Virus record (IMG/VR): IMGVR_UViG_3300043467_000176 | Span: 1-30,946 of that record | Source of the DNA: a virus | Direction: 5' to 3' (one strand) | DNA: 30,946 nucleotides | Part shown: positions 6,845 to 30,040 of the stretch, in pieces | Position numbering within the stretch: the first letter of the stretch is position 1 | Layout of the letters: each line of letters opens with the position of its first letter | The notes under the pieces: generated by a model | The model's input: only the letters and a program-made list of their open reading frames with translations | Database searches by the model: none | Told to the model about the DNA's origin: nothing | Made by a program: the position numbers and the translations under genes

Positions 6845-7896
6845 TTGTATCTTTCGTATAGTTTAAAGCTGGCAAGATTCTTTGCCTTTGATTCACACAT
6901 CATATCAAAGTTATCAATAAATGTCAATGCCCAATCGTTCACAGCATCGTTCCAATAGTAGTCGGAATGTGCCCGAAGCTTCTGTTTACTATGTCCTGCT
7001 TCAATCAACGCACCATGAGAGGGTAATTGTGATCCGGGATGTCCGACAAGTATATCTTCACGGCTGACGGAGTAATGTAAAGTAGGCCTAACACCGCGCC
7101 AACTATCAATAACCATCTTAACCCGGTCATCATTTGCGGAAATATATTCTCCTTCACGTATCCAATTATGGTGTATGTCCATGACTGTAGGTACGAGATC
7201 AGATAATGATAAGCAGTCTGTAAGTCCATGTGTGTATTCCTCATTTTCTAGTGTTAGTGTGTTTCTTGCTTCGGGGCTGAGTCTTCCGTAAACATCTCTG
7301 ATTCCTTGTGGGCCTCTACGCCCAGATATGTGTATATTAATCTTAAAATCCTGGAAATTTCTACCGAACCCCATCCATCTGGCCATATCTGCATGATATT
7401 CAAACTCCTCTATACTCTTATTTACTACCTCATCACGGTCGCTTGCTAAAACTACAAATTGATCGGGATGAAATGAAAGACGTACATCATTTGCTCTAGC
7501 TGTCTCACCGATGGGTGCAAACCATCGTTGTAAACTATTTTGTACATCAGTACTTTGCCAAAATTCTTTGTATCCATCCATAGTATAAAAACTAAGCATA
7601 TCACTAGTAAGACGAACCATACGCAATTCGGGTTCTAATGTAGCAACACGCTTAACCAATGCGTGAGTATTCATAATATTGCGTTTAGCAACATCCATAA
7701 TCTTTTCTTCCACTACACTACGGTTATTACGTTTTGCCCATGCTTGAGTTGTACCGCCTGTGTTAAGGCCTTCAGCAGAGACAATCTCGCCTTTACTGTT
7801 GATTTCTGCCCATTTACAAGCAAAGCCGATGCGTTTGATAGATTGATTTGTCAAAGTAATAGTCCAAAGTGATAAATAATAGATGTAGTGTAACAT
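6829..7896 (-). CDS. uvdE: UV-damage endonuclease (UvdE/UvsE family)
   Basis: A 355-residue AP-endonuclease-fold enzyme that nicks DNA 5' of UV photoproducts and other distortions. It shows RIGFACKWAEIN near residue 22, VRLTSDMLSF, LSFHPDQFVVLAS, INIHISGRRG, LTLENEE, MDIHHNWIREGEY, PTLHYSVSRE and LRAHSDYYW, which supply the metal-binding His, Glu and Asp residues of the family. Family members usually begin a few residues before RIGFAC, so the first 20 residues from the ATG at 7896 may not be translated. A TTG 14 codons in (near 7854) is an alternative, and a TTGACT-N17-TACACT pair overlaps the ATG. It would protect phage DNA in sunlit water and would be the head gene of its operon. Confidence 0.88.
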   Translation of the reverse strand: MLHYIYYLSLWTITLTNQSIKRIGFACKWAEINSKGEIVSAEGLNTGGTTQAWAKRNNRSVVEEKIMDVAKRNIMNTHALVKRVATLEPELRMVRLTSDMLSFYTMDGYKEFWQSTDVQNSLQRWFAPIGETARANDVRLSFHPDQFVVLASDRDEVVNKSIEEFEYHADMARWMGFGRNFQDFKINIHISGRRGPQGIRDVYGRLSPEARNTLTLENEEYTHGLTDCLSLSDLVPTVMDIHHNWIREGEYISANDDRVKMVIDSWRGVRPTLHYSVSREDILVGHPGSQLPSHGALIEAGHSKQKLRAHSDYYWNDAVNDWALTFIDNFDMMCESKAKNLASFKLYERYKCLKN

Positions 7897-7904
7897 ATTT
7901 ACAC
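7871..7904 (+). promoter_or_regulatory. Possible late promoter plus hairpin for the plus-strand pair
   Basis: GATAAATAA at 7871-7879 resembles the late motif. Nine bases further is an inverted repeat, GTGTAA (7888-7893) and TTACAC (7899-7904), with a five-base loop. This precedes the genes starting at 7934 and 8827, which look late because of their leaders. The hairpin overlaps the divergent uvdE start, so transcription could interfere with it. Confidence 0.35.
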
Positions 7905-7933
7905 AATAAAGTCAACTATTTACGGATAACAAA

Positions 7934-8830
7934 ATGAGATTTACCGAAATTATATCAGAGAGTTCAGGAACCAGACTAAAAGACATAGCAAAAATTGCTA
8001 CTAATATGCCAGACGCTGACTTTTGGTTAGTGCGTAAGGGTAGTGATAAGACTGTGGGTAAGCCTCTCAAAGAATTTGATCCATCAAGGATTGGCATTAA
8101 AGTTGTAAAAACTGATGTTATTGACCCAAACTATCTTTATTACGCAATGATGAATTTACACAATCAGGGACACTTTGCCCGTATAGCAAATGGAACAACT
8201 AATTTAGTTAATATTACTGTAAATGATATTGCTAATATTCCACTAGGTCAACAGGGTATGAATGAAGCAAAAGATCCATGGAAAGAATATGAATTTATAT
8301 ACGATGGTCAAAAAATAGGACATATATATAGTAGGACAGGTCAACCTCCCTTTACAACTAGAAGAAAAGATGGTAATTTTATAAAACAAATGAATCATAA
8401 GAGTCTTAAGGATGCTCAGATGTTTTTAATCAACACACATTTAGGTAGGTCAACCTATGATAATATGAGCCATTATGGTACAACACCTCAGCAAGGTATC
8501 GATGAAGACTGGAACAAAGTCAATAAGAAAGACAAAACGTCCGGCATGAGCCGTAAAGCAGTGAAAGCATATCGTAGGGAAAATCCAGGCAGCAAATTGC
8601 AAACAGCAGTTACTACCAAACCTAGTAAATTAAAGCCTGGATCAAAAGCTGCCAAACGCCGCAAGAGTTTTTGTGCTCGTATGAGTGGTAACAAAGGTCC
8701 TATGAAAAAGCCTAATGGTAAACCTACCCCTAAAGCATTAGCACTACGTAGATGGAATTGCGAGAGTGTAGAGCAAATGGAAGAATTAGTAATGCTAGCT
8801 GAACAATATATTAGGAATCTTAAGAAATGA
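7934..8830 (+). CDS. HsdS-like N-terminal domain joined to a DUF6321-type C-terminus, with capsid-targeting-like leader
   Basis: 298 residues. Residues 1-10 (MRFTEIISES) resemble the T4 capsid targeting leader and contain I-S-E|S, the form cut by T4 gp21. Residues 15-104 (DIAKIATNMPDADFWLVRKG, then NYLYYAMMNLH, GTTNLVNITVNDIANIPL) resemble part of a type I restriction specificity subunit. Residues 197-277 (KTSGMSRKAVKAYRRENPGS, AAKRRKSFCARMSGNKGPM, PNGKPTPKALALRRWNC) match the basic Cys-containing phage domain I know as DUF6321. The C-terminal domain is strongly positive and likely binds DNA. The gene overlaps the next as ATGA. A packaged DNA-binding, anti-restriction or injected protein is the inference. 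Confidence 0.7.
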   Translation: MRFTEIISESSGTRLKDIAKIATNMPDADFWLVRKGSDKTVGKPLKEFDPSRIGIKVVKTDVIDPNYLYYAMMNLHNQGHFARIANGTTNLVNITVNDIANIPLGQQGMNEAKDPWKEYEFIYDGQKIGHIYSRTGQPPFTTRRKDGNFIKQMNHKSLKDAQMFLINTHLGRSTYDNMSHYGTTPQQGIDEDWNKVNKKDKTSGMSRKAVKAYRRENPGSKLQTAVTTKPSKLKPGSKAAKRRKSFCARMSGNKGPMKKPNGKPTPKALALRRWNCESVEQMEELVMLAEQYIRNLKK

Positions 8831-10200
8831 ATTTTGTAGAACTATTTGAGGGTGCAACACCCAAATTACCGGGTGCTGTAGGTGGCATCAAAGTTATGAG
8901 CATGGATCAGTTTCTGGCTCAATCTGATGATTTGCCCGATGAACAATTAGATGAATTGTCTCCTCAAACATTAGCAAGCTATGTTAGAAAATCTAATACA
9001 GATGCTAGAGATAGACTTAAACAAGATCCTAAAAATCAATTTAAAAAGGCTGAAAAAAGAGCCGCTGGTATAGGTCAAGCTATCGGCAAGATTCGTGCTA
9101 CAATGGAACCTGCTACTAAACAACAACCTGTAGCAGAAGCAACAAAACTACCAGCACAAACACGTGAACTAAAAGGCCAAGAACTAGATGATTACTTAGA
9201 TAGAATTCGTAATCGTGAAAAGGGTAAAACAGACAAATATAAACTTCCTTACATCCATCGCTCAAGTGTAGTCAAATACTACAATGAAGAAGGTAAACGC
9301 TACGATACAGACCAAATCAAAACAGCATTAGGTGTTCGCCCAAAGAAACTTCTTAAACAAAATGAGAAGATGAAACATTCTAATGGTGAACTAGAACAAT
9401 TCTATAACATTGGTTTTGCCGCACTAGTCGGTATAGCATTAGATGAAGGTACAAACGAACTCATAGTAGTTAATACATGTCCGGGTGCTGGATCATGTAA
9501 AGTAGATTGTTTCGCTATGAAGGGTGGTAAGGTTCAGTTTGAAGGTCCTTGGTTAAGTGACGGAAGAATTCTTACTTTCTTATTGAATGATCCAGATGGA
9601 TTCTTTAATCAACTAAGTGCAGAAATCACAAAAGAAGAAAAGCTAGCACAAAAGGGTGGTTACAATCTAACTATTCGTTGGCATGATGCTGGTGATTTCT
9701 TTAGTCCAGAATATATGGATTTGGCATTCAAATTAGCGGCATCACATCCTGATGTTAAGTTCTATGCTTATACAAAAATAGCGGATGCAGCCTTAGGTCA
9801 AAAGCCAAGTAACTTTATTGTTAATTGGAGTGAGGGTGCAAGTACTAGTCAAGAGAAACAAGTTAAACAACAAGATCCACAACTAGATGTAACTAAGAAT
9901 AGTCGTATTGTTCCAAGTAAGTTATTCTATGACTTATTGAAGAAGGATAAGGATGGTAAGTTAGATAAGACCGCTGATGGTGCTTGGCAACCAAAAGACG
10001 CAGCCGCATTAGAAGAATTAAAAGACAGATTGGCAAATCAATATAATTTAAAACGTGATAGTATCATTGATTATAATGAGATGATGGCTACTCCACAAAA
10101 GAATAACATTAAGAAATGGAATGTTATCATTGCACCAGGTGAGGGTGATATCAGTGCTAATAGACAAGATGTATTGTCTACATTATTATTGAAACACTAA
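8827..10200 (+). CDS. GP88-like protein with Cys cluster and capsid-targeting-like leader
   Basis: 457 residues. The start MNFVELFEGA carries L-F-E|G, a gp21-type cleavage site. Residues 10-120 are low in structure and basic. From about 190 the sequence has the marks of the phage Gene-product-88 family: VNTCPGAGSCKVDCFAMKGG (216-235; C218, C224, C228 as CX5CX3C), a TIRWHDAGDFFSPEYMDLAF strand-helix and HPDVKFYAYTK. The three Cys could hold an Fe-S cluster, and the general layout recalls radical-SAM-type barrels, but the family's reaction is unknown to me. The stop interlocks with that of the convergent epimerase gene by three bases. Likely late and virion-associated. Confidence 0.7.
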   Translation: MNFVELFEGATPKLPGAVGGIKVMSMDQFLAQSDDLPDEQLDELSPQTLASYVRKSNTDARDRLKQDPKNQFKKAEKRAAGIGQAIGKIRATMEPATKQQPVAEATKLPAQTRELKGQELDDYLDRIRNREKGKTDKYKLPYIHRSSVVKYYNEEGKRYDTDQIKTALGVRPKKLLKQNEKMKHSNGELEQFYNIGFAALVGIALDEGTNELIVVNTCPGAGSCKVDCFAMKGGKVQFEGPWLSDGRILTFLLNDPDGFFNQLSAEITKEEKLAQKGGYNLTIRWHDAGDFFSPEYMDLAFKLAASHPDVKFYAYTKIADAALGQKPSNFIVNWSEGASTSQEKQVKQQDPQLDVTKNSRIVPSKLFYDLLKKDKDGKLDKTADGAWQPKDAAALEELKDRLANQYNLKRDSIIDYNEMMATPQKNNIKKWNVIIAPGEGDISANRQDVLSTLLLKH

Positions 10201-11030
10201 ACCTTCAATAAATCTTCCATAGTGTATAGATTACGCATATAGGGTGATACATTAGCTAGTACAGAACTAGGTAAATCACCCTTTCTCCTTGGGCCGTATT
10301 TTACATCAAAACTACACTCATTGACTTTTTGAAATAAATCAACAATCTCCTGTACAGTATATCCTACACCATGTCCTAAGCATTCAAAGCTATTGCTAGG
10401 CTTTTCAATTGCTTGCATCAATGCATCACATATCTCATTAACATGTACATAATCACGTATACATGTACCATCAATAACGGACACATCATAATCATTACCG
10501 TAAATAGTAAACTCACCCGACTCTTTAGCTTTAATTAAATTGTACATTAACCCATCGGGGTTAGTGGGAGCCACGACGGTGCTTCCAATAACATTATAAA
10601 ATCTAAAGATTGTATATGGTGTTTGACGATGGGTTGTACAATATTCTCTGACCACATCTTCTGCGGCACGTTTGCTGATACCATAAGCACTAGCACAATC
10701 TTGTGCGGCACCTGTACTAGCAAAGATAAAGTTCTTTGTCTTTATCTTGTTAACTACATTCATTGTACCATTCAAGTTAGTGATATAGTATTTGATAGGC
10801 ATCTGCTCGCTTTCACCTACACGAACTAATGCCGCTAAATGGATTACACAATCATATTCAATATCACCCGGAATAGCAAATTGTCTATTGATATCGCAAC
10901 GATAAAACTCATTCAATGGCGCTTGTGGTTCATCAATATCTAAGCCATGAACTTCATATTCATTCTCAAGCATTTTGCATAGATGACTGCCAATGTATCC
11001 TGAGCATCCTGTAATTAAAATCTTTTTCAT
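10197..11030 (-). CDS. NAD-dependent UDP-glucose 4-epimerase-like (GalE family)
   Basis: A 277-residue extended short-chain dehydrogenase. ITGCSGYIGSH (6-16) is the NAD-binding glycine loop, HLAALV the conserved second strand, FASTGAA the Ser/Thr site and YGISK the catalytic Tyr-Lys. DGTCIRDYVHVNEI and RRKGDLPSSVLANV match the sugar-nucleotide half of GalE. It is about 60 residues shorter than E. coli GalE, so the substrate may differ. It follows the glycosyltransferase by an ATGA overlap, suggesting it makes that enzyme's sugar donor. It is the last gene of the QueD-QueE operon. Confidence 0.88.
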   Translation of the reverse strand: MKKILITGCSGYIGSHLCKMLENEYEVHGLDIDEPQAPLNEFYRCDINRQFAIPGDIEYDCVIHLAALVRVGESEQMPIKYYITNLNGTMNVVNKIKTKNFIFASTGAAQDCASAYGISKRAAEDVVREYCTTHRQTPYTIFRFYNVIGSTVVAPTNPDGLMYNLIKAKESGEFTIYGNDYDVSVIDGTCIRDYVHVNEICDALMQAIEKPSNSFECLGHGVGYTVQEIVDLFQKVNECSFDVKYGPRRKGDLPSSVLANVSPYMRNLYTMEDLLKV

Positions 11031-12784: not shown

Positions 12785-13633
12785 TTATGTGCCCCACTCG
12801 TTTTTAAACAGTGGGACTTGAAGTCTATCACTATAACGATAACCACGATTCATTGCTTCAATAGCAACATTCTTAGCATTCAAACTATAGATACTTTCTA
12901 CACCACCACATGGCATAAAGTATACAGGGCCTCTAAATCCACCATTACGAAACTCTTGTACTGCCTTATCAGCTTCTAATGCATCTTCTTTAGTAGCGAT
13001 AACAAACTTTAAATATACAAAGCCAATACTTTCATATTGACGAATAATACTAGGACAAATTGCTTCTTCCCACTTCTCACCACTGATACTTAGTTTAGGG
13101 CTAACACTAAATGTAAGTGCATTCTTTTCTCTGTTAATCTTCCATTGTTGTAGATAGATAGAGAGGTCTTGACTTAGTTCTTGTGTACCATTAGTTTCAA
13201 ATGTAATCTCTTTCAATGACCTCATCTTCTCGTTTGAAAGCAGTTCTGGATACGCTCTTTGCCATCCAAGAAGAGGTTCACCGCCAGTGATGACAAGGTG
13301 CTCATCCATCCAGCGATTGTGAGGAAGCATAGCCATAATGTCGTCAACAATATCATCGGTGGGGCGAACAGGACTAAGATGCTTAAACCTAGGATCCCAT
13401 GAAGCATAACTGTCACACCCTGTACTGACCAACGGTAGTTTTTTATAATCATCATAATAGTGAACCCTTGCGGCAATATCTTCTACTTCTTTACTTACTT
13501 CACCTTTAGGCATGCCAAAGCCTGCACATGTAAAGTTACAACCAAATGTTCTTAGGAACACGGAGGGAACTCCCATATATCGGCCTTCTCCTTGTATACT
13601 ATAGAATAGTTCTGAAATTTTTAGTTGTGCCAT
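12785..13633 (-). CDS. queE: 7-carboxy-7-deazaguanine synthase QueE (radical SAM)
   Basis: 282 residues. It converts 6-carboxy-tetrahydropterin to 7-carboxy-7-deazaguanine. FYSIQGEGRYMGVPSVFLRTFGC (10-32) is the QueE opening. The cluster ligands appear as C32, C36 and C73, a long-insert form of the radical SAM motif (CX3CX36C) ending GCDSYASW. LVITGGEPLLGWQ is the SAM-binding glycine motif and ITFETNGTQ the next conserved strand. The start overlaps the queD stop as TAATG, so the two are coupled. The variant cluster spacing is what I expect of phage QueE proteins. Confidence 0.92.
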   Translation of the reverse strand: MAQLKISELFYSIQGEGRYMGVPSVFLRTFGCNFTCAGFGMPKGEVSKEVEDIAARVHYYDDYKKLPLVSTGCDSYASWDPRFKHLSPVRPTDDIVDDIMAMLPHNRWMDEHLVITGGEPLLGWQRAYPELLSNEKMRSLKEITFETNGTQELSQDLSIYLQQWKINREKNALTFSVSPKLSISGEKWEEAICPSIIRQYESIGFVYLKFVIATKEDALEADKAVQEFRNGGFRGPVYFMPCGGVESIYSLNAKNVAIEAMNRGYRYSDRLQVPLFKNEWGT

Positions 13634-14115
13634 TATGCAAACTCTCCGTCTTCCCTGTGACCACCTCGTCCTGCCATGTTACTATCAGTCTCACGGACCT
13701 CTACTCTACAGCACCATACACGTTTTGCTTCTTCACTACCGCAGTTAGGTAAAAAGATTGTGTTAATGTATTCATATAAGAAGTCAGCAATACCCTCACA
13801 ACCAGTACGTTCTACTTCTGTAATCTTTGCTAGTTTTAAACGACCTAGTTCTAATAGATGTTCACGCATTGGGTCATCTTGTGCGACTAATAATGTATGG
13901 TCAAACCATTCTTCTAGTTTATCTTTAAGTGGTCGTAATCCACCGAAGTCAGTTACCCAGTTACGGGCATCTAATGTATCTGCTTCAAATTCAAAGTGAA
14001 AACTCATAGCATAGCCATGAATTAAGTTACAATGACTGTCAGCACGCCATTGACGATATGCGACAGGACCTATTTGTCTGTATGTTTTTGTTGAAAAGAA
14101 TTTTTTGTTTGCCAT
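13633..14115 (-). CDS. queD: 6-carboxy-tetrahydropterin synthase QueD
   Basis: 160 residues, T-fold. It makes 6-carboxy-tetrahydropterin from dihydroneopterin triphosphate. SHCNLIHGYAMSFHFEFEA (27-45) contains the catalytic Cys29 and zinc His33. Where E. coli has HGH this one has HGY, and H28 or H40 may be the missing ligand. FGGLRPLKDKLEEWFDHTLL follows, then GCEGIADFLYEYI in the PTAEN position and VRETDSN at the end. AGGAGA lies 7 bases upstream of the ATG, and an extended -10 promoter sits at 14134-14139, so queD heads the operon that includes queE and the sugar genes. Confidence 0.9.
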   Translation of the reverse strand: MANKKFFSTKTYRQIGPVAYRQWRADSHCNLIHGYAMSFHFEFEADTLDARNWVTDFGGLRPLKDKLEEWFDHTLLVAQDDPMREHLLELGRLKLAKITEVERTGCEGIADFLYEYINTIFLPNCGSEEAKRVWCCRVEVRETDSNMAGRGGHREDGEFA

Positions 14116-14665: not shown

Positions 14666-14898
14666 TTTGAAAGAGTTCTCCACATCTTAGTTTGTTCGTG
14701 TTCTTTTAAGAATTCATCTTCACCGGCAAATGTAGGACTATCGGCTATAATCTCATCCAATAGCCATTTGATCCGATGTAAGTCTTTTTTGATTTCAAAT
14801 TGATTAAATCCGTCATTATAGTTACTATGTAGTTCTACACCACTCATATAGATTTGATGATGAACACTGTTATAGTCCATTTGTTTACGAAAGCCCAT
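14662..14898 (-). CDS. Small T4-like phage hypothetical protein
   Basis: 78 residues from the ATG at 14898, which forms TAATG with the folE stop; a TTG at 14907 is rejected. YNDGFNQFEIKKDLHRIKWLLDEIIADSPTF and HEQTKMW form a helical, acidic protein of a type common in T4-like phages. Coupled to folE and the nucleotidyltransferase. Unknown role. Confidence 0.72.
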   Translation of the reverse strand: MGFRKQMDYNSVHHQIYMSGVELHSNYNDGFNQFEIKKDLHRIKWLLDEIIADSPTFAGEDEFLKEHEQTKMWRTLSK

Positions 14899-15581
14899 TA
14901 TTTGCAACCTTTGTTAGCAATTTGTAAGAACTCTTGTCGTGCTGATGGATCAGTTTTGAAACCACCACCTAAACGACAAGTAACAGTGCTACTACCTGTA
15001 TCTTCTACGCCGCGTGATTTTACACAATAGTGTTGTGCGTCAATCATAACTGCAACATCTTCTGTATCAAGGATGAACTGTAAGGTGTGAAAAATTTGCT
15101 CTGTTAACCTCTCTTGAATTTGAGGTCTTTTGCTAAAATATTCTACAATACGGTTTATCTTACTAAGCCCTAACACCTTTTGTTTAGGGACATAAGCTAC
15201 TGTAGCCAATCCATCAATGACTACAAAATGATGTTCGCAGTTAGATTGAACATTAACATTACGCTCTACAACCATTTCGTTGTATTGCATCTTATTGTCA
15301 ACTGTTGTACATTTAGGGAATGCTTCATAATCGAGACCCCAAAATATTTCATTGACATACATCTTGGCAACACGTTTAGGTGTTTCAATAAGACTATCAT
15401 CAGATAAATCTAAACCAAGTGTTTTCATAATCTCGGCAAATAACGGCTCAATGACCGCAATCTTATCTTTACGATCCGGAACCAAAGACTTGATTGTAGG
15501 AGTCTCAACACCCATTCTAACTAAGTGTTCGTGTACTTGTAGACCCAGTACTGGATCTGTTTTTGTTTTATTATAACTCAT
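14898..15581 (-). CDS. folE: GTP cyclohydrolase I
   Basis: 227 residues, close to the 222 of E. coli FolE. It opens GTP to dihydroneopterin triphosphate, the first step towards 7-deazaguanine. Visible are [24 protein letters not shown] with zinc ligands C115 and H118 and partner H117, [20 protein letters not shown] (substrate pocket) and [11 protein letters not shown] with C186. I chose the ATG at 15581, preceded by GGAAGG, over a longer frame from 15638. A late-type motif and a 9-bp hairpin form its upstream region. Separate control from queD suggests that flux into the pathway is raised late. Confidence 0.94.
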
Positions 15582-15616
15582 AGATAACCTTCCTTTGTGA
15601 TGGTTTTGTTTTGATA

Positions 15617-15649
15617 TTGTGTTACCGTTGTGTAACACAAGTATTTATC
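15617..15649 (-). promoter_or_regulatory. Late-type promoter motif with a 9-bp 5' hairpin ahead of folE
   Basis: GATAAATAC (15649-15641) is directly followed by an inverted repeat with TTGTGTTAC arms at 15640-15632 and GTAACACAA at 15625-15617, loop of six bases. No T-run follows, so it is not a typical terminator. It would form the 5' end of the folE transcript or an operator. The motif overlaps the stop of the upstream gene. Confidence 0.5.
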
Positions 15650-25313: not shown

Positions 25314-25332
25314 GGTTAATTATTGTTTAACC
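25314..25332. terminator. Small inverted repeat at the end of the repeat-protein gene
   Basis: GGTTAA (25314-25319) and TTAACC (25327-25332) flank a seven-base loop and include the stop codon. There is no clear T-run on either strand, so termination is only a possibility. Confidence 0.25.
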
Positions 25333-26253
25333 GTAGGCGGCCGCCGCAAGTGAATATCTTGCTGTACCAACACCAGTAGTATTTGTAGCAACCACACCTG
25401 TATTTGATACTAAATTAGTTACTGCTGTTGTTACTCCATATCCAAATATAGCTTTATCAGTGCCGTAAACAGCGGCAGCTAGATAAAACCTAGCAGTACC
25501 AACACCAGTCGTATCTGTTGCTACTACTCCTGTGTTTGATACTAGGTTGGTCATTGATACACTTGAATTGTCGGAAGCATATCCATATCCAAATATAGCC
25601 TTATCCGTACCATAACCTGCTGCCGCTAGCTCACTTCTAATAGTTCCAACACCAGTTGTATCAGTTGCTACTACACCTGTATTACTTACTAGATTGGTTA
25701 ACGAATAATAAGTGGGATAATTTTGCCCATATCCAAATATAGCTTTATCGGTTCCATAGCCTGCGGCCGCTAGTCCATTTCTAATAGTACCTACACCTGT
25801 CGTATCAGTAGCAACTACTCCGGTGTTTGATACTTTGTTAGTTATTGCTGTTCTGCCGCCAGAGGCGTAGCCATATCCAAATATAGCTTTATCAGTCCCG
25901 TAACCTGCGGCTGCAATTCCAGTTCTACCAGTACCAACACCTGCAGTATCATTAGCCACCACACCTGTATTACTTACTTTGTTAGTTATTGATAAATAAG
26001 TACCATTTCCTTCTCCATAACCAAATAAGGCTTTATCAGTACCATACCCAGCCGCCGCTAGGTTAGTTCTGGTAGTACCTACTCCAGCTGTATCAGTTGC
26101 TACAACGCCTGTATTACTTACTAGATTGGTTATTGCAGTCTCTCCTACTGCTGAAATGTACCCGTATCCAAATATAGCTTTATTACCGGCTGGTCCGGCA
26201 GTAAGAGTTAACCCTCCGCCAAATGTTACACCACCGTTTAATGTTACCGACAT
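25327..26253 (-). CDS. Six-blade repeat protein, probable tail adhesin (copy C)
   Basis: 308 residues. After a Gly-rich leader (MSVTLNGGVTFGGGLTLTAG) come six repeats of 41-49 residues: KAIFGYG, a variable loop of 4-12 residues, then (S/A)(I/L/M/V)TN(L/K)VSNTGVV, DT(T/A)GVGT.R and LAAAGYGTD. The scaffold is nearly constant, whereas the loop after FGYG differs in every unit, for example YISAVGETA, EGNGTYLS and YASDNSSVS. Six units suit a small beta-propeller with loops on one face. It is most likely a fibre tip or receptor-binding protein. It has a weak ribosome binding site and is the last of four tandem genes. Confidence 0.75.
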   Translation of the reverse strand: MSVTLNGGVTFGGGLTLTAGPAGNKAIFGYGYISAVGETAITNLVSNTGVVATDTAGVGTTRTNLAAAGYGTDKALFGYGEGNGTYLSITNKVSNTGVVANDTAGVGTGRTGIAAAGYGTDKAIFGYGYASGGRTAITNKVSNTGVVATDTTGVGTIRNGLAAAGYGTDKAIFGYGQNYPTYYSLTNLVSNTGVVATDTTGVGTIRSELAAAGYGTDKAIFGYGYASDNSSVSMTNLVSNTGVVATDTTGVGTARFYLAAAVYGTDKAIFGYGVTTAVTNLVSNTGVVATNTTGVGTARYSLAAAAYG

Positions 26254-26275
26254 TCTTTATTCTTTCTTTGTATAA

Positions 26276-27199
26276 TTAACCGTAACTTGCGGCCGCTAAT
26301 AATTGTCTAGCAGTACCGACACCTGTAGTATCTGTAGCAACTACACCGGTGTTTGATACTAAGTTGGTCATTGATACATTAATACTACCATTCTCACCGT
26401 ATCCAAATATAGCTGTACCTACCCCATATCCTGCGGCCGCAAGATAATATCTAGCAGTTCCAACACCTGTTGTATCAGTAGCAACTACACCTGTGTTTGA
26501 TACTAAGTTAGTTATTGCAGTTGGTCCAGATCCATAACCAAATATAGCTTTATCAGTACCATAACTAGCGGCTGCAAGACTATCTCTAGCAGTACCTACA
26601 CCTGTAACATTGTTGCCAACAACCCCCGTGTTTGATACTAGATTGGTTATTGATTGCAATCCGCTACCGTTACCATATCCAAAAATAGCTTTGTCAGTGC
26701 CATAACCTGCGGCTGCAAGATAACCTCTAGCAGTACCAACACCTGCAGTATCACCGGAAACCACACCCGTATTTGATACTAGATTGGTTATTGATATAAA
26801 AGAGACACCACCTGTATATCCATAACCAAATATAGCTTTATCAGTACCATATCCTGCGGCTCCTAAATCACTTCTAACAGTTCCAACTCCTGAAGTATCA
26901 GTAGCAACTACACCTGTATTTGATACTAGGTTAGTTATTGACGTTCTACTAGCTCCGAATCCATATCCAAATATAGCTTTATCTGTGCCATATCCTGCGG
27001 CCGCCAATCCAAATCTAGCAGTACCGACACCTGTAGTATCATTGGCAACAACACCTGTGTTTGATACTAAATTAGTAATTGACAAATTTGTCCCGTTATA
27101 ACCATATCCAAAGATAGCCTTACTACCACCTGGTGGAGGACTAAGAGTCCATCCTCCGCCTGATATTGTTACACCGCCACCACTAAATGTTACCGACAT
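26276..27199 (-). CDS. Six-blade repeat protein, probable tail adhesin (copy B)
   Basis: 307 residues, a paralog of copy C with the leader MSVTFSGGGVTISGGGWTLS and six blades. Loops after FGYG are YNGTNLS, FGASRTS, YTGGVSFIS, NGSGLQS, SGP and ENGSINVS. The fifth unit has the shortest loop. The blade ends are LAAA(G/S)YG. The leader matches the other members, so the N-terminus is probably an attachment element and the propeller the exposed head. The gene starts 4 bases after the stop of the 71-residue gene, with GAGAATAAAG before the ATG. Confidence 0.75.
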   Translation of the reverse strand: MSVTFSGGGVTISGGGWTLSPPPGGSKAIFGYGYNGTNLSITNLVSNTGVVANDTTGVGTARFGLAAAGYGTDKAIFGYGFGASRTSITNLVSNTGVVATDTSGVGTVRSDLGAAGYGTDKAIFGYGYTGGVSFISITNLVSNTGVVSGDTAGVGTARGYLAAAGYGTDKAIFGYGNGSGLQSITNLVSNTGVVGNNVTGVGTARDSLAAASYGTDKAIFGYGSGPTAITNLVSNTGVVATDTTGVGTARYYLAAAGYGVGTAIFGYGENGSINVSMTNLVSNTGVVATDTTGVGTARQLLAAASYG

Positions 27200-27202
27200 T
27201 CT

Positions 27203-27418
27203 TTATTCTCTTGGATAATCTGGAAATGGTACCCAATTAGTTGTAGCTTCATCCCATAAGTATGGATAACCATCACTTGGAATAGCAACTGGAGCAACAT
27301 ATGTAGTTGCTGCCTCATCCCATGTCCATGATGCTGGATGTTCTGCATTAAATGCATTTTCTCTTGCTTGTGCAATTTCCTCTGCTGTTGGAGCAGGCAT
27401 GTTTTCTAAGTCTATCAT
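27203..27418 (-). CDS. Small WDEA-repeat phage protein between the adhesin genes
   Basis: 71 residues from the ATG at 27418, preceded by AAAGGAAAAT; a longer frame from 27457 is less likely. A helical opening (MPAPTAEEIAQAREN) is followed by two units with WDEAATT (33-39) and WDEATTN (55-61), each with a nearby Pro/Tyr-rich segment. Short proteins with W.WDEA. repeats are found near fibre genes in other phages and may act as chaperone or tail accessory. A late-type motif lies upstream. Confidence 0.7.
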   Translation of the reverse strand: MIDLENMPAPTAEEIAQARENAFNAEHPASWTWDEAATTYVAPVAIPSDGYPYLWDEATTNWVPFPDYPRE

Positions 27419-27440
27419 TTTATTTTCCTTTATAATAAAT

Positions 27441-27449
27441 GTATTTATG
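27441..27449 (-). promoter_or_regulatory. Late-type promoter motif CATAAATAC before the adhesin pair
   Basis: CATAAATAC (27449-27441) is placed so that a transcript would start about six bases downstream and carry AAAGGAAAA ahead of the ATG at 27418. This is the best-placed late motif in the window. Confidence 0.5.
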
Positions 27450-27461
27450 TTAATCATAATG

Positions 27462-28409
27462 TTAAGATCCGTAACTTGCGGCCGCTAATTCCTCTCTAGC
27501 AGTTCCAACACCTGTAGTATCAGTAGCAACAACACCTGTGTTTGATACTAGGTTAGTCATTGACACTATGCCACTATTGGCAAATCCATATCCAAATATA
27601 GCTTTATCAGTGCTATAACCTGAGGCTGCTAATGTTCCTCTAATAGTTCCAACACCTGTAGTATTACTAGCAACAACACCTGTGTTTGATACTAGATTAG
27701 TAGTTGATACATTAGTACTTCCGTTATACCCGTATCCAAATATAGCTTTATCAGTGCCATAGGTTGCGGCTGCTAATGTTCCTCTAGCAGTTCCAACACC
27801 TGTTGTATCAGTAGCAACAACACCTGTATTTGATACAAGATTGGTAATTGAGTAAGGAGTGAAACCTGGAGAGTATGTAACCCCATATCCAAAAATAGCT
27901 TTATCTGTTCCATAGCCGGCGGCTGCTAAGTATAATCTAGCAGTACCAACACCTGTAGTATCATTGGCTACTACACCAGTGTTTGATACTAGATTGGTCA
28001 TTGAGTAAGGAGATCCCCCTGGGATAGAACCATATCCAAATATAGCTTTATCAGATCCGTATCCGGCAGCTGCTAATCCATTTCTAGCAGTACCTACACC
28101 TGCTGTATCAGTAGCAACAACACCTGTATTTGATACTAGATTGGTGATTGAACGTGCGCTTGGAGAGGCATATCCATATCCAAATATAGCTTTATCTGTG
28201 CCATATCCTGCGGCTGCCAATCCATATCTAGCAGTCCCTACCCCTGCGGTATCTGTGGCAACAACACCAGTAGTTGATACTAAATTAGTTATTGATGTTA
28301 CTGATCCATCATTTCCATAACCAAATATAGCCCTAATACCCGCCGGTGGTGCCTCAATAGTCCAACCACCACCATTTAATGTTATTCCACCTGTTATTGT
28401 TATTGACAT
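27462..28409 (-). CDS. Six-blade repeat protein, probable tail adhesin (copy A)
   Basis: 315 residues with leader MSITITGGITLNGGGWTIEA and six blades. Loops after FGYG are NDGSVTS, YASPSARS, SIPGGSPYS, VTYSPGFTPYS, YNGSTNVS and FANSGIVS; the fourth is the longest in the array. AAAGGTTAAAA precedes the ATG. The copy is as complete as its two paralogs, with no frameshift, so all three appear to be maintained by selection. Confidence 0.75.
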   Translation of the reverse strand: MSITITGGITLNGGGWTIEAPPAGIRAIFGYGNDGSVTSITNLVSTTGVVATDTAGVGTARYGLAAAGYGTDKAIFGYGYASPSARSITNLVSNTGVVATDTAGVGTARNGLAAAGYGSDKAIFGYGSIPGGSPYSMTNLVSNTGVVANDTTGVGTARLYLAAAGYGTDKAIFGYGVTYSPGFTPYSITNLVSNTGVVATDTTGVGTARGTLAAATYGTDKAIFGYGYNGSTNVSTTNLVSNTGVVASNTTGVGTIRGTLAASGYSTDKAIFGYGFANSGIVSMTNLVSNTGVVATDTTGVGTAREELAAASYGS

Positions 28410-28424
28410 TTTTTAACCTTTATA

Positions 28425-29429
28425 TTATTGTATACCGGATGAGGCAGCAAAAACCCTCCTACCGGAACTTAACGGGCCACGTGCAGTCGCAGTAACAGTA
28501 TCAGTAGCATATGTTATTCTGTCTACGGAAGAAAAAGGACCGGCAGGAGTTGAAAAATTATTTCCTCCACCAAACCAACCATATGTTGTTCCATCGGTTG
28601 ATGCTGCTTGACCTTGATTAGTTCTAGTTAACGGACCACGAACACTTGCTGTAGCGGTATCATTTGCATAATCAATACGATCTACCCTAGAATAATAAAT
28701 TCCCTCCCATGTCGGCGGGCCGACGAAAAATCCACCGGCAAACCAACCATAACTTGTACTACCAGTACCGGCCATTGATGATCTAGTTGAACTTAATGGA
28801 CCTCTAATAGTTGATGTTACTGTATCAGTGGCATATGTTATCCTAGTTACGATACTACGGTATCCGATAGTACTAGGGTTATCAAATCCTACTGCAATCC
28901 AGCCATATGTAGTGCTGTCAGTAGATGCTGCACCTTGATATGAACAACCGGATAATGATCCCCTTGTACTTGCAGTACCAGTATCAGTTGCGTATGTTAT
29001 TCTGGATACTGTAGAATAATCACTAGGTGATTGATCCTTACCACCTGCAAACCATCCATATGTATCTGTGCCGTTCGCAGTAATACTATAAGCACTATAA
29101 CTTAGTGGGCCGCGATTACTTGCTGTATCAGTATCTGTTGCATAGGTGATCCTTGATACTGAGCTAATAGCAACTGTAATGCGTGAACCAGCAAACCATC
29201 CATAATTTAAATTACCGGTACCGGCATTTTGATATCTGGTGCCGTTTAATGGTCCACGAACACTTGCAGTAGCGGTATCAGTTGCATATGTTATTCGTTG
29301 TACTGTTGAAGTAACACCAGAATCGTCAGACCCACCTGCAAACCATCCTGCTGTTGGAGTTGATGGTGGTGCGGCAGTTATTCCTACTCCACCACTAAAT
29401 GATATTCCACCTGTTATTGATATTGACAT
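28425..29429 (-). CDS. Kelch-like six-blade repeat protein, probable tail adhesin
   Basis: 334 residues. Leader MSISITGGISFSGGVGITAA, then six units of about 48-56 residues: YGWFAGG, a variable loop, S(S/T)V.RITYATDT and RGPLS..R...AGT. The repeat differs from that of the next three genes but the leader and architecture are the same. The YGW(F/I)(A/G)GG strand with RITYATDT recalls Kelch-like beta-propellers. The loops (for example DQSPSDYST and FVGPPTWEGIYY) are the likely receptor-contacting parts. It starts 12 bases after the metallopeptidase gene, with AGAGAATAAAA before the ATG. Confidence 0.75.
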   Translation of the reverse strand: MSISITGGISFSGGVGITAAPPSTPTAGWFAGGSDDSGVTSTVQRITYATDTATASVRGPLNGTRYQNAGTGNLNYGWFAGSRITVAISSVSRITYATDTDTASNRGPLSYSAYSITANGTDTYGWFAGGKDQSPSDYSTVSRITYATDTGTASTRGSLSGCSYQGAASTDSTTYGWIAVGFDNPSTIGYRSIVTRITYATDTVTSTIRGPLSSTRSSMAGTGSTSYGWFAGGFFVGPPTWEGIYYSRVDRIDYANDTATASVRGPLTRTNQGQAASTDGTTYGWFGGGNNFSTPAGPFSSVDRITYATDTVTATARGPLSSGRRVFAASSGIQ

Positions 29430-29441
29430 ATTTTATTCTCT

Positions 29442-30017
29442 TTATTGAAATATTTCTGGATGTGCTTTACCAAATATTTTAATATATTTGCCAGCCATTA
29501 CATCCGCTTCTGCTTCTATTGGACTACCTGGATAACTATCACCCGGCTTAATCATATTTAATTCACCCTGGCGTACATGAGTTAATTCATGGAACACAGT
29601 ACGTAATATATCTACTAGATTTCTATTAGCACAATAAACCCATACTTCACCCGTCTCTGGATTGTGTCTACCAGTATGATGACCTTCTTGTGCTTCATCA
29701 CTATCATAACTAAACTCTATCTTTGGAGTATTTTCTAAATTCAACTTCTTACTTGTCCAAGCAAGAAACTTCTGTACAATAGGATTGTTATTCAAATCTT
29801 CTTGTTCACTCTCATCTAGTTTATCTTTAATCCAACTGTCTGGAGTCTTATGATATTTTCTAACAAACAAATCATGCAATGCATCACCGGTTATACGATG
29901 TTTCTTTGCTATGTTTTTCATTAGCTTATCAATGGTATTATAGTCGTGTTTCTCTAAGCTAGGAAGTTTCTTAGCTAGTTCACTTGCGGCCGATTCGTAT
30001 AGTTCTATTGCTCTCAT
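29442..30017 (-). CDS. HExxH zinc metallopeptidase-like protein with capsid-targeting-like leader
   Basis: 191 residues from the ATG at 30017; an upstream GTG at 30035 is rejected because the ATG gives the leader MRAIELYES, which matches two other proteins here and holds L-Y-E|S. VFHELTHVRQGE (141-152) has the zinc motif HELTH, and PIEAEADVMAGKY supplies a downstream acidic ligand (E168 or E170), the arrangement of gluzincin-like or phage zincin peptidases. Residues 1-85 are helical and charged. It might act on a host or virion protein after injection, or on the peptidoglycan region. The substrate is unknown. Confidence 0.75.
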   Translation of the reverse strand: MRAIELYESAASELAKKLPSLEKHDYNTIDKLMKNIAKKHRITGDALHDLFVRKYHKTPDSWIKDKLDESEQEDLNNNPIVQKFLAWTSKKLNLENTPKIEFSYDSDEAQEGHHTGRHNPETGEVWVYCANRNLVDILRTVFHELTHVRQGELNMIKPGDSYPGSPIEAEADVMAGKYIKIFGKAHPEIFQ

Positions 30018-30021
30018 ATTA

Positions 30022-30030
30022 GTATTTATG
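30022..30030 (-). promoter_or_regulatory. Late-type motif CATAAATAC before the metallopeptidase
   Basis: CATAAATAC lies four bases before the ATG at 30017. A transcript from it would be near leaderless, and no Shine-Dalgarno is seen. It may instead mark the start region by chance. Confidence 0.35.
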
Positions 30031-30040
30031 CTCACTTATA

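Follow-up and report, generated by a model that had tools for sequence, protein, structure and literature searches.

Three proteins encoded in a 30,946-base fragment of a giant T4-like phage (the whole stretch of DNA analysed here, hereafter the window) start with short leaders that, taking the evidence as a whole, are best explained as capsid-targeting propeptides like those of the T4 internal proteins, an explanation which we consider quite probable. Leader 1, MRFTEIISE|S, lies at positions 7934-7960 (plus strand) and opens a 298 AA DUF6321 protein (PF19846; 7934-8830); leader 2, MNFVELFE|G, lies at 8827-8850 (plus) and opens a 457 AA GP88-like protein (PF17338; 8827-10200); and leader 3, MRAIELYE|S, lies at 29994-30017 (minus) and opens a 191 AA metallopeptidase (29442-30017). 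The ORF of the last can be extended upstream to a GTG at 30035; since an equivalent Met starts every homologue, the Met at 30017 has been taken as the start. The predicted cut contexts are ISE|S, LFE|G and LYE|S. The leaders have 8 or 9 residues, against 10 in T4, where targeting positions 4 and 7 are hydrophobic (PMC9026906); aligned from the cut, MRFTEIISE satisfies this with F3 and I6, and the two 8-residue leaders have no hydrophobic residues at those positions.

By the DNA polymerase of the window, the nearest named phages are Sinorhizobium phage Phosso (469 kb) and Agrobacterium phage Atu_ph07 (490 kb), at 46-48% identity. Among the related contigs, G001 (116 kb) is nearly identical to the window, and G003 (349 kb) is collinear with it, its longest matches having 84-89% nucleotide identity, and carries, at 98606-99037, a gene for Peptidase S77, the gp21-type protease. 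In G002 (524,565 bases) the window region is present twice, as diverged copies at 16-37 kb and 484-513 kb in opposite orientation (~80% and 82% identity to the window), and the S77 gene once only; the doubled region is either a duplication or a chimeric assembly. The minus strand of the window also encodes QueE-like (12785-13633), QueD-like (13633-14115) and FolE-like (14898-15638) proteins, as read from their translations, which suggest a preQ0-type pathway, possibly used in DNA modification. Four repeat genes at 25327-29429, also minus, have units of ~45-50 residues (KAIFGYG...TNLVSNTGVVATDT and YGWFAGG...RITYATDT) and probably encode structural or fibre-like proteins.

A first-pass annotation, made from the sequence alone, had singled out these N-termini for a Glu at position 5 followed by [LI]xE before Ser or Gly, and all three ORFs and leaders were recovered in place. 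The pattern is seen three times in the 46 window genes against 0.05 expected (Poisson P ~2e-5, a post hoc figure, the pattern having been chosen after inspection); the expectation was derived from the window together with four related contigs, where the pattern follows 7 of 6501 internal methionines. The looser, generic [LI]xE[ASG] does not reach significance when only the window is considered (p=0.19), which would suit an origin by chance, or by a composition bias at the N-termini of AT-rich phage genes. Convincing support for the predicted leaders comes from the relatives rather than from the window by itself. None of the other window genes has such a start, while the relatives bear the leader on many more proteins, so the original list of three was an understatement.

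In homologues taken from IMG/VR the site is kept while the remainder of the leader drifts, over ~160 distinct homologous N-termini. Leader-bearing N-termini, mostly of 8 or 9 residues, number 47 for the metallopeptidase, 66 for GP88 and 48 for the DUF6321 family, as collected with a regular expression that itself requires the Glu; the third residue before the cut is Leu or Ile in 40/47, 64/66 and 47/48 of them, respectively. After the Glu comes mainly Ser in the metallopeptidases, Gly in GP88 and Ala, Ser, Asn or Asp in the DUF6321 family, where [ILV]xE|[ASNDG] is kept in all 48. In an alignment of 23 metallopeptidases for which the Glu was not required, only M1 and E8 are invariant within residues 1-9. 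Their leaders range from MRAIELYE to MLTEHIIIE|S, MRYNEFIFE, MRYKEFISE|S and MITEDFVPE|A, and the same SAAxELAKKLPSLEKHDYNTID follows. All 22 aligned GP88 proteins have M1, L6 and E8, and at least 90% of them have G9. Exceptions are few, MRANDFTTE|S being one, along with one homologue lacking the site.

Peptidase S77 (PF03420), the counterpart of gp21 for which the first-pass annotation had advised a search, is not encoded in the 31-kb window; it is found in 6/6 related contigs of more than 180 kb, with E-values of 1e-26 to 1e-29, so the lack of a gp21-like protease, which had been named in advance as an argument against trimming, probably does not apply. It is also present in Atu_ph07, Phosso, the cyanophages S-SRM01, P-SSM7, P-TIM68, MA01 and S-SCSM2R, PA5oct and S-CREM2. 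In ten S77-bearing genomes and contigs (a pool that includes G001, although the G001 fragment itself is without S77), the form M[RKN]..[EQKH][FLIVY]..E|[ASG] stands at 36/3671 gene starts versus 2/13001 internal methionines (p=8e-22); as gene calling was by simple ORF detection, some of the starts are wrong. Together with the conservation described above, this refutes the chance or composition-bias origin statistically, and we give it next to no probability; the same form is found at just 1/345 gene starts in five S77-less phages, a small sample.

Directly compared, leader counts in S77-positive and S77-negative genomes do not differ significantly (p=0.13-0.49, depending on the form of the pattern, with a small negative set). 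A sharper control is given by individual domains: DUF6321 proteins in the S77-less pelagiphages Eistla, HTVC028P and HTVC023P start without a leader, as do GP88 proteins in S77-less Streptomyces and Mycobacterium phages, while the DUF6321 protein of S77-bearing P-SSM7 begins MKTYSQFIEE|G, which closely resembles the leader of T4. A near-T4 leader, MKTFQEFQE|S, is also present in S77-bearing S-SRM01, whose peptidase and GP88 homologues are leaderless; packaging is thus not a fixed property of these two domains. The earlier proposal is supported in part: the leaders behave as gp21-type propeptides, with [LI]xE|[SGA] kept as the rest diverges, relatives have S77, and in S77-less phages these domains lack the leader.

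Late-promoter-like sequences were read 13 nt upstream of the metallopeptidase ATG (CATAAATA, 30023-30030, minus) and 63 nt upstream of the DUF6321 ATG (GATAAATA, 7871-7878, plus); both genes are thus preceded by [GC]ATAAATA. Enrichment of late promoters at leader genes compared with others was seen only in G002 and Atu_ph07 (p ~0.003-0.004) and is weak elsewhere. As a separate observation, [TCG]ATAAATA in the window clade stands exactly 12-13 nt upstream of the ATG in ~61 genes and at 24-36 nt in ~96, with almost none between; the former class is found in G002-G004 and, in the window, at 30017-30030, 732-744 and 2280-2292. Its ~61 genes have no Shine-Dalgarno match, partly by construction, and, given the T4 late start point, their transcripts would begin at the AUG, so leaderless late mRNAs are predicted. 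Atu_ph07, PA5oct and the cyanophages have nearly only the 24-36 nt class.

Several unrelated leader genes have an upstream stretch in common, and mobile promoter-plus-leader cassettes have been described for T4-type internal proteins. Both would fit the idea that recombination has spread a 5' cassette, made up of the promoter and the first codons, and that the common N-termini hitch-hike in it with no function in the protein. A conserved 60-nt stretch before leader 1 was considered as such a cassette and rejected: on the minus strand (7887-7915) it holds a sigma70-like promoter, TTGACT-17-TACACT, directed towards a divergent UvdE-like gene, which explains the conservation, and the stretch has therefore not been counted for leader mobility. 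The sequence AATAAAGTCAAC ahead of the DUF6321 and GP88 genes is this early promoter read on the opposite strand; a related element, TTGACTTTATT, then TATAAC, recurs in Atu_ph07. Upstream sequences, moreover, differ among the metallopeptidase leaders, leader sequences diverge almost fully while [LI]xE|[SGA] persists, and sites of the same kind reappear within the proteins, at module borders; a functionless cassette is accordingly very unlikely.

These internal sites extend the first-pass annotation, which was right about the leaders: of the three proteins, at least two carry further sites of the same type. Behind its leader the DUF6321 protein consists of module A (AA 10-111), module B (112-191) and a small, basic DUF6321 module (192-298; Pfam match at 199-274). 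One putative site, GQQGMNE111|A112 (8264-8269, plus), lies at the A/B junction, where homologues swap modules, and a second, PQQGIDE191|D192 (8504-8509, plus), precedes the DUF6321 module; the Asp behind the latter differs from the T4 optimum. In relatives module A ends NDIANIPLGQQG[MV]xE and is followed by AKDPWKEYEF, DWQKVNKKDK (DUF6321), AGSPAQQAAIA or SSSQQDAIN; since one module A precedes four different sequences, the exchange falls exactly behind the Glu. All 19 distinct matched DUF6321 starts (19/19) come immediately behind hydrophobic-x-E, in a leader or internally, and in one 116 AA protein the module directly follows the leader (MRATEFITE|DWNK). NPAQQAA modules begin two residues after such a site in 22/24 cases and GLWANIHAKR modules 2-4 residues after one. 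Per 1000 AA, the linker [QE]G[VMI]xE occurs 2.33 times in proteins with modules and 0.127 times in the remaining ORFs, an 18-fold difference in density.

In the GP88-like protein, alignment of relatives places a further site, PVAE104|A105 (9136-9141, plus), ahead of the conserved core (Pfam GP88 at 175-346); the stretch that leads up to it varies in length, E104 and A105 are invariant, and G003 and G004 have QGVAE|A at this place. The structure model of this protein is poor (pLDDT 53). As sites of leader type stand at module-swap points, S77 may cut such cargo into parts. Whether the protease would release the DUF6321 and GP88 modules separately, at GMNE|A, GIDE|D and VAE|A, we judge an even question. 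The same balance applies to the more general proposal that leader proteins could be cargo polyproteins, in which a capsid-targeting leader precedes small modules (DUF6321, NPAQQAA, GLWANIHAKR, module A, module B, the GP88 core) set apart by QG[VMI]xE|-type separators, cut by S77 inside the head and shuffled at these sites.

The metallopeptidase consists of its leader, an N-terminal module (AA 9 to ~68) and an HExxH peptidase domain. Its HELTH motif lies at 29577-29591 (minus); H143, E144 and H147, as well as E168, the likely third ligand, are invariant in the 23 homologues. No Pfam match was obtained. The best PDB matches of its model (pLDDT 83) in Foldseek were 6mdw, 5xbn and 4jiu, which between them represent abylysin, SPRTN and Wss1 (probability 0.9-0.99), and the HExxH motif and these folds are what it has in common with the SPRTN/Wss1/minigluzincin proteins; at E >0.1 and with no Pfam match, the resemblance is distant. 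The modelled fold is compatible with action on cytoplasmic or DNA-bound proteins. Calling the three leader proteins otherwise unrelated, as the first-pass annotation does, holds with one restriction: cyanophage PHROG 10346 contains both the N-terminal module of the metallopeptidase and DUF6321, so these two proteins draw on one module pool.

Virion data are available for several other phages. CsCl-purified virions of S-CREM2 were analysed by mass spectrometry (PMC10665884, Table 3), and the list includes, with 4 peptides, ORF137, the best phage match to the window DUF6321 protein; ORF137 has no canonical leader at residue 1, and AITE|S stands further inside. Five S-CREM2 proteins have a T4-like leader: a SAM hydrolase (MKDFDSFLEE), an APH-like kinase (KRFDAFLTE, GTG start), a cytidylyltransferase (MKNFSSFLTE|A), gp13 (MKDLHSFLTE) and gp136 (MQTFSMFFSE). 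All five are in the virion list, and no undetected ORF has that form. A broader form is found in 6/50 detected versus 3/172 other proteins (p=0.005), with no signal when [ASG] is required after the Glu; these statistics are post hoc, since the T4-like form was defined after inspection of those N-termini, and, according to the authors, cytosolic proteins may have co-purified (PMC10665884). Cas9-like gp12 of S-CREM2 (7704-10313, minus), detected in virions by others, carries the leader-like RFASFMAE|A behind its first 17 annotated residues. The cytidylyltransferase T4-GC190 is present in S-SM1 virions (PMC3037559), and its P-SSM7 member begins MKKFSAFLTE|A.

In Atu_ph07, genes 43-63 include paralogues beginning M[KR]W.QLTE|[SA] or similar; they lie within the cluster CDS 31-76, 29 products of which were found in virions (PMC6102473), a comparison made at the level of the gene cluster. 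The run of these paralogues (39484-50592), one of which has a Zeta-toxin-like kinase domain (PF06414), is candidate head cargo, as is a leader protein elsewhere in the genome (290373-290885) that weakly matches ART-PolyVal. In PA5oct the MS-detected proteins show weak enrichment of leaders (4/93 versus 2/394, p=0.014), and the list also holds cytosolic enzymes such as ribonucleotide reductase and thymidylate synthase. A 209 AA leader protein of the window relatives has a homologue in PA5oct that carries the label ESI-MS/MS and itself begins MKSFRDYYDASK, with no site. By comparison, then, the claim that the three proteins would be packaged and trimmed is well supported, including by the finding of homologous or leader-bearing proteins in other virions.

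This PA5oct homologue is a virion structural protein, which speaks for an alternative: the leaders would direct the proteins to the prohead, where these would serve in the core as structural or scaffold-like parts, destroyed or kept in the head rather than injected. In the same direction, gp22 and gp23 homologues also have such N-terminal sites (MLDAIKPLLE|S and MSKVLLE|G), and the DUF6321 module resembles the T4 internal peptides in its small size and basic character. The metallopeptidase and GP88, however, are enzyme-like, the S-CREM2 SAM hydrolase, kinase and cytidylyltransferase are enzymes, and the Atu_ph07 leader set has the Zeta-toxin-like kinase and the weak ADP-ribosyltransferase match; a role as core parts is thus rather unlikely, though it keeps more weight than the cassette.

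For the window phage we infer cleavage, packaging of the three proteins, injection and a function in the host. On the propeptide reading, the three proteins would be made late in infection, the leader would anchor them in the prohead core, and S77 would cut after [LI]xE, probably also at the internal sites of the DUF6321 and GP88 proteins, freeing a mature protein that stays in the head and enters the next cell along with the DNA. Late expression, docking in the core, trimming and retention in the head are together likely; entry into the host and activity inside it, for which the models are the T4 internal proteins and Alt (PMC9026906) and the enzymatic nature of many of the bodies, is somewhat less so, if still favoured.

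Such leaders would turn a mechanism known from one phage, that of the T4 internal proteins, into a sequence rule by which candidate head cargo can be recognised from N-termini alone, in uncultured giant phages as well as cyanophages. The rule would offer a mechanistic reason for the recurrence of SAM hydrolase, kinases and cytidylyltransferases in cyanophage virion proteomes. If the internal sites are cut, several proteins would be delivered per gene, and effector modules could be exchanged through recombination at protease sites. Taken together, the three leaders, the wider set in relatives and the leader-type sites between modules suggest a general system for packing proteins and delivering them into bacteria. 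In the literature searched, which covers few subscription papers, capsid targeting and cyanophages are linked only by a T4 review, and DUF6321 is not mentioned.

Among known systems, polyvalent proteins (PMC5512222) are multi-domain, thought to be injected, and share recurring metallopeptidase, ART and toxin-like domains with the leader proteins; zincins have been proposed to process them (PMC5512222). Each window protein has at most one recognisable domain, whereas several unrelated enzymatic domains per polypeptide define the polyvalent type; the window modules are also small, with prohead-protease-type sites between them, and the metallopeptidase has a leader and a gene of its own. Head maturation of the phiKZ/SPN3US type likewise involves a giant phage, ejected proteins and propeptides cut behind glutamate, but with the motif S/A-x-E (PMC9026906), as opposed to L/I/V/M-x-E with a Pfam-level S77 protease in the window clade. 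With the gp21-processed IPI, IPII, IPIII and Alt of T4 the window proteins have in common a short N-terminal propeptide, [LI]xE, unrelated bodies, late-promoter-like sequences and, in the relatives, the S77 protease. The 10-residue capsid-targeting sequence of T4, the [L/I]-x-E rule and their use on unrelated proteins are already known, and packaging of various proteins by this sequence in T4-like phages has been suggested (PMC9026906). For an uncultured giant-phage clade, leaders of less than T4 length, their occurrence on DUF6321, GP88-like and metallopeptidase bodies, and the additional leader-type sites at module junctions differ from T4 and are new, and the link to virion-detected cyanophage enzymes is also new.
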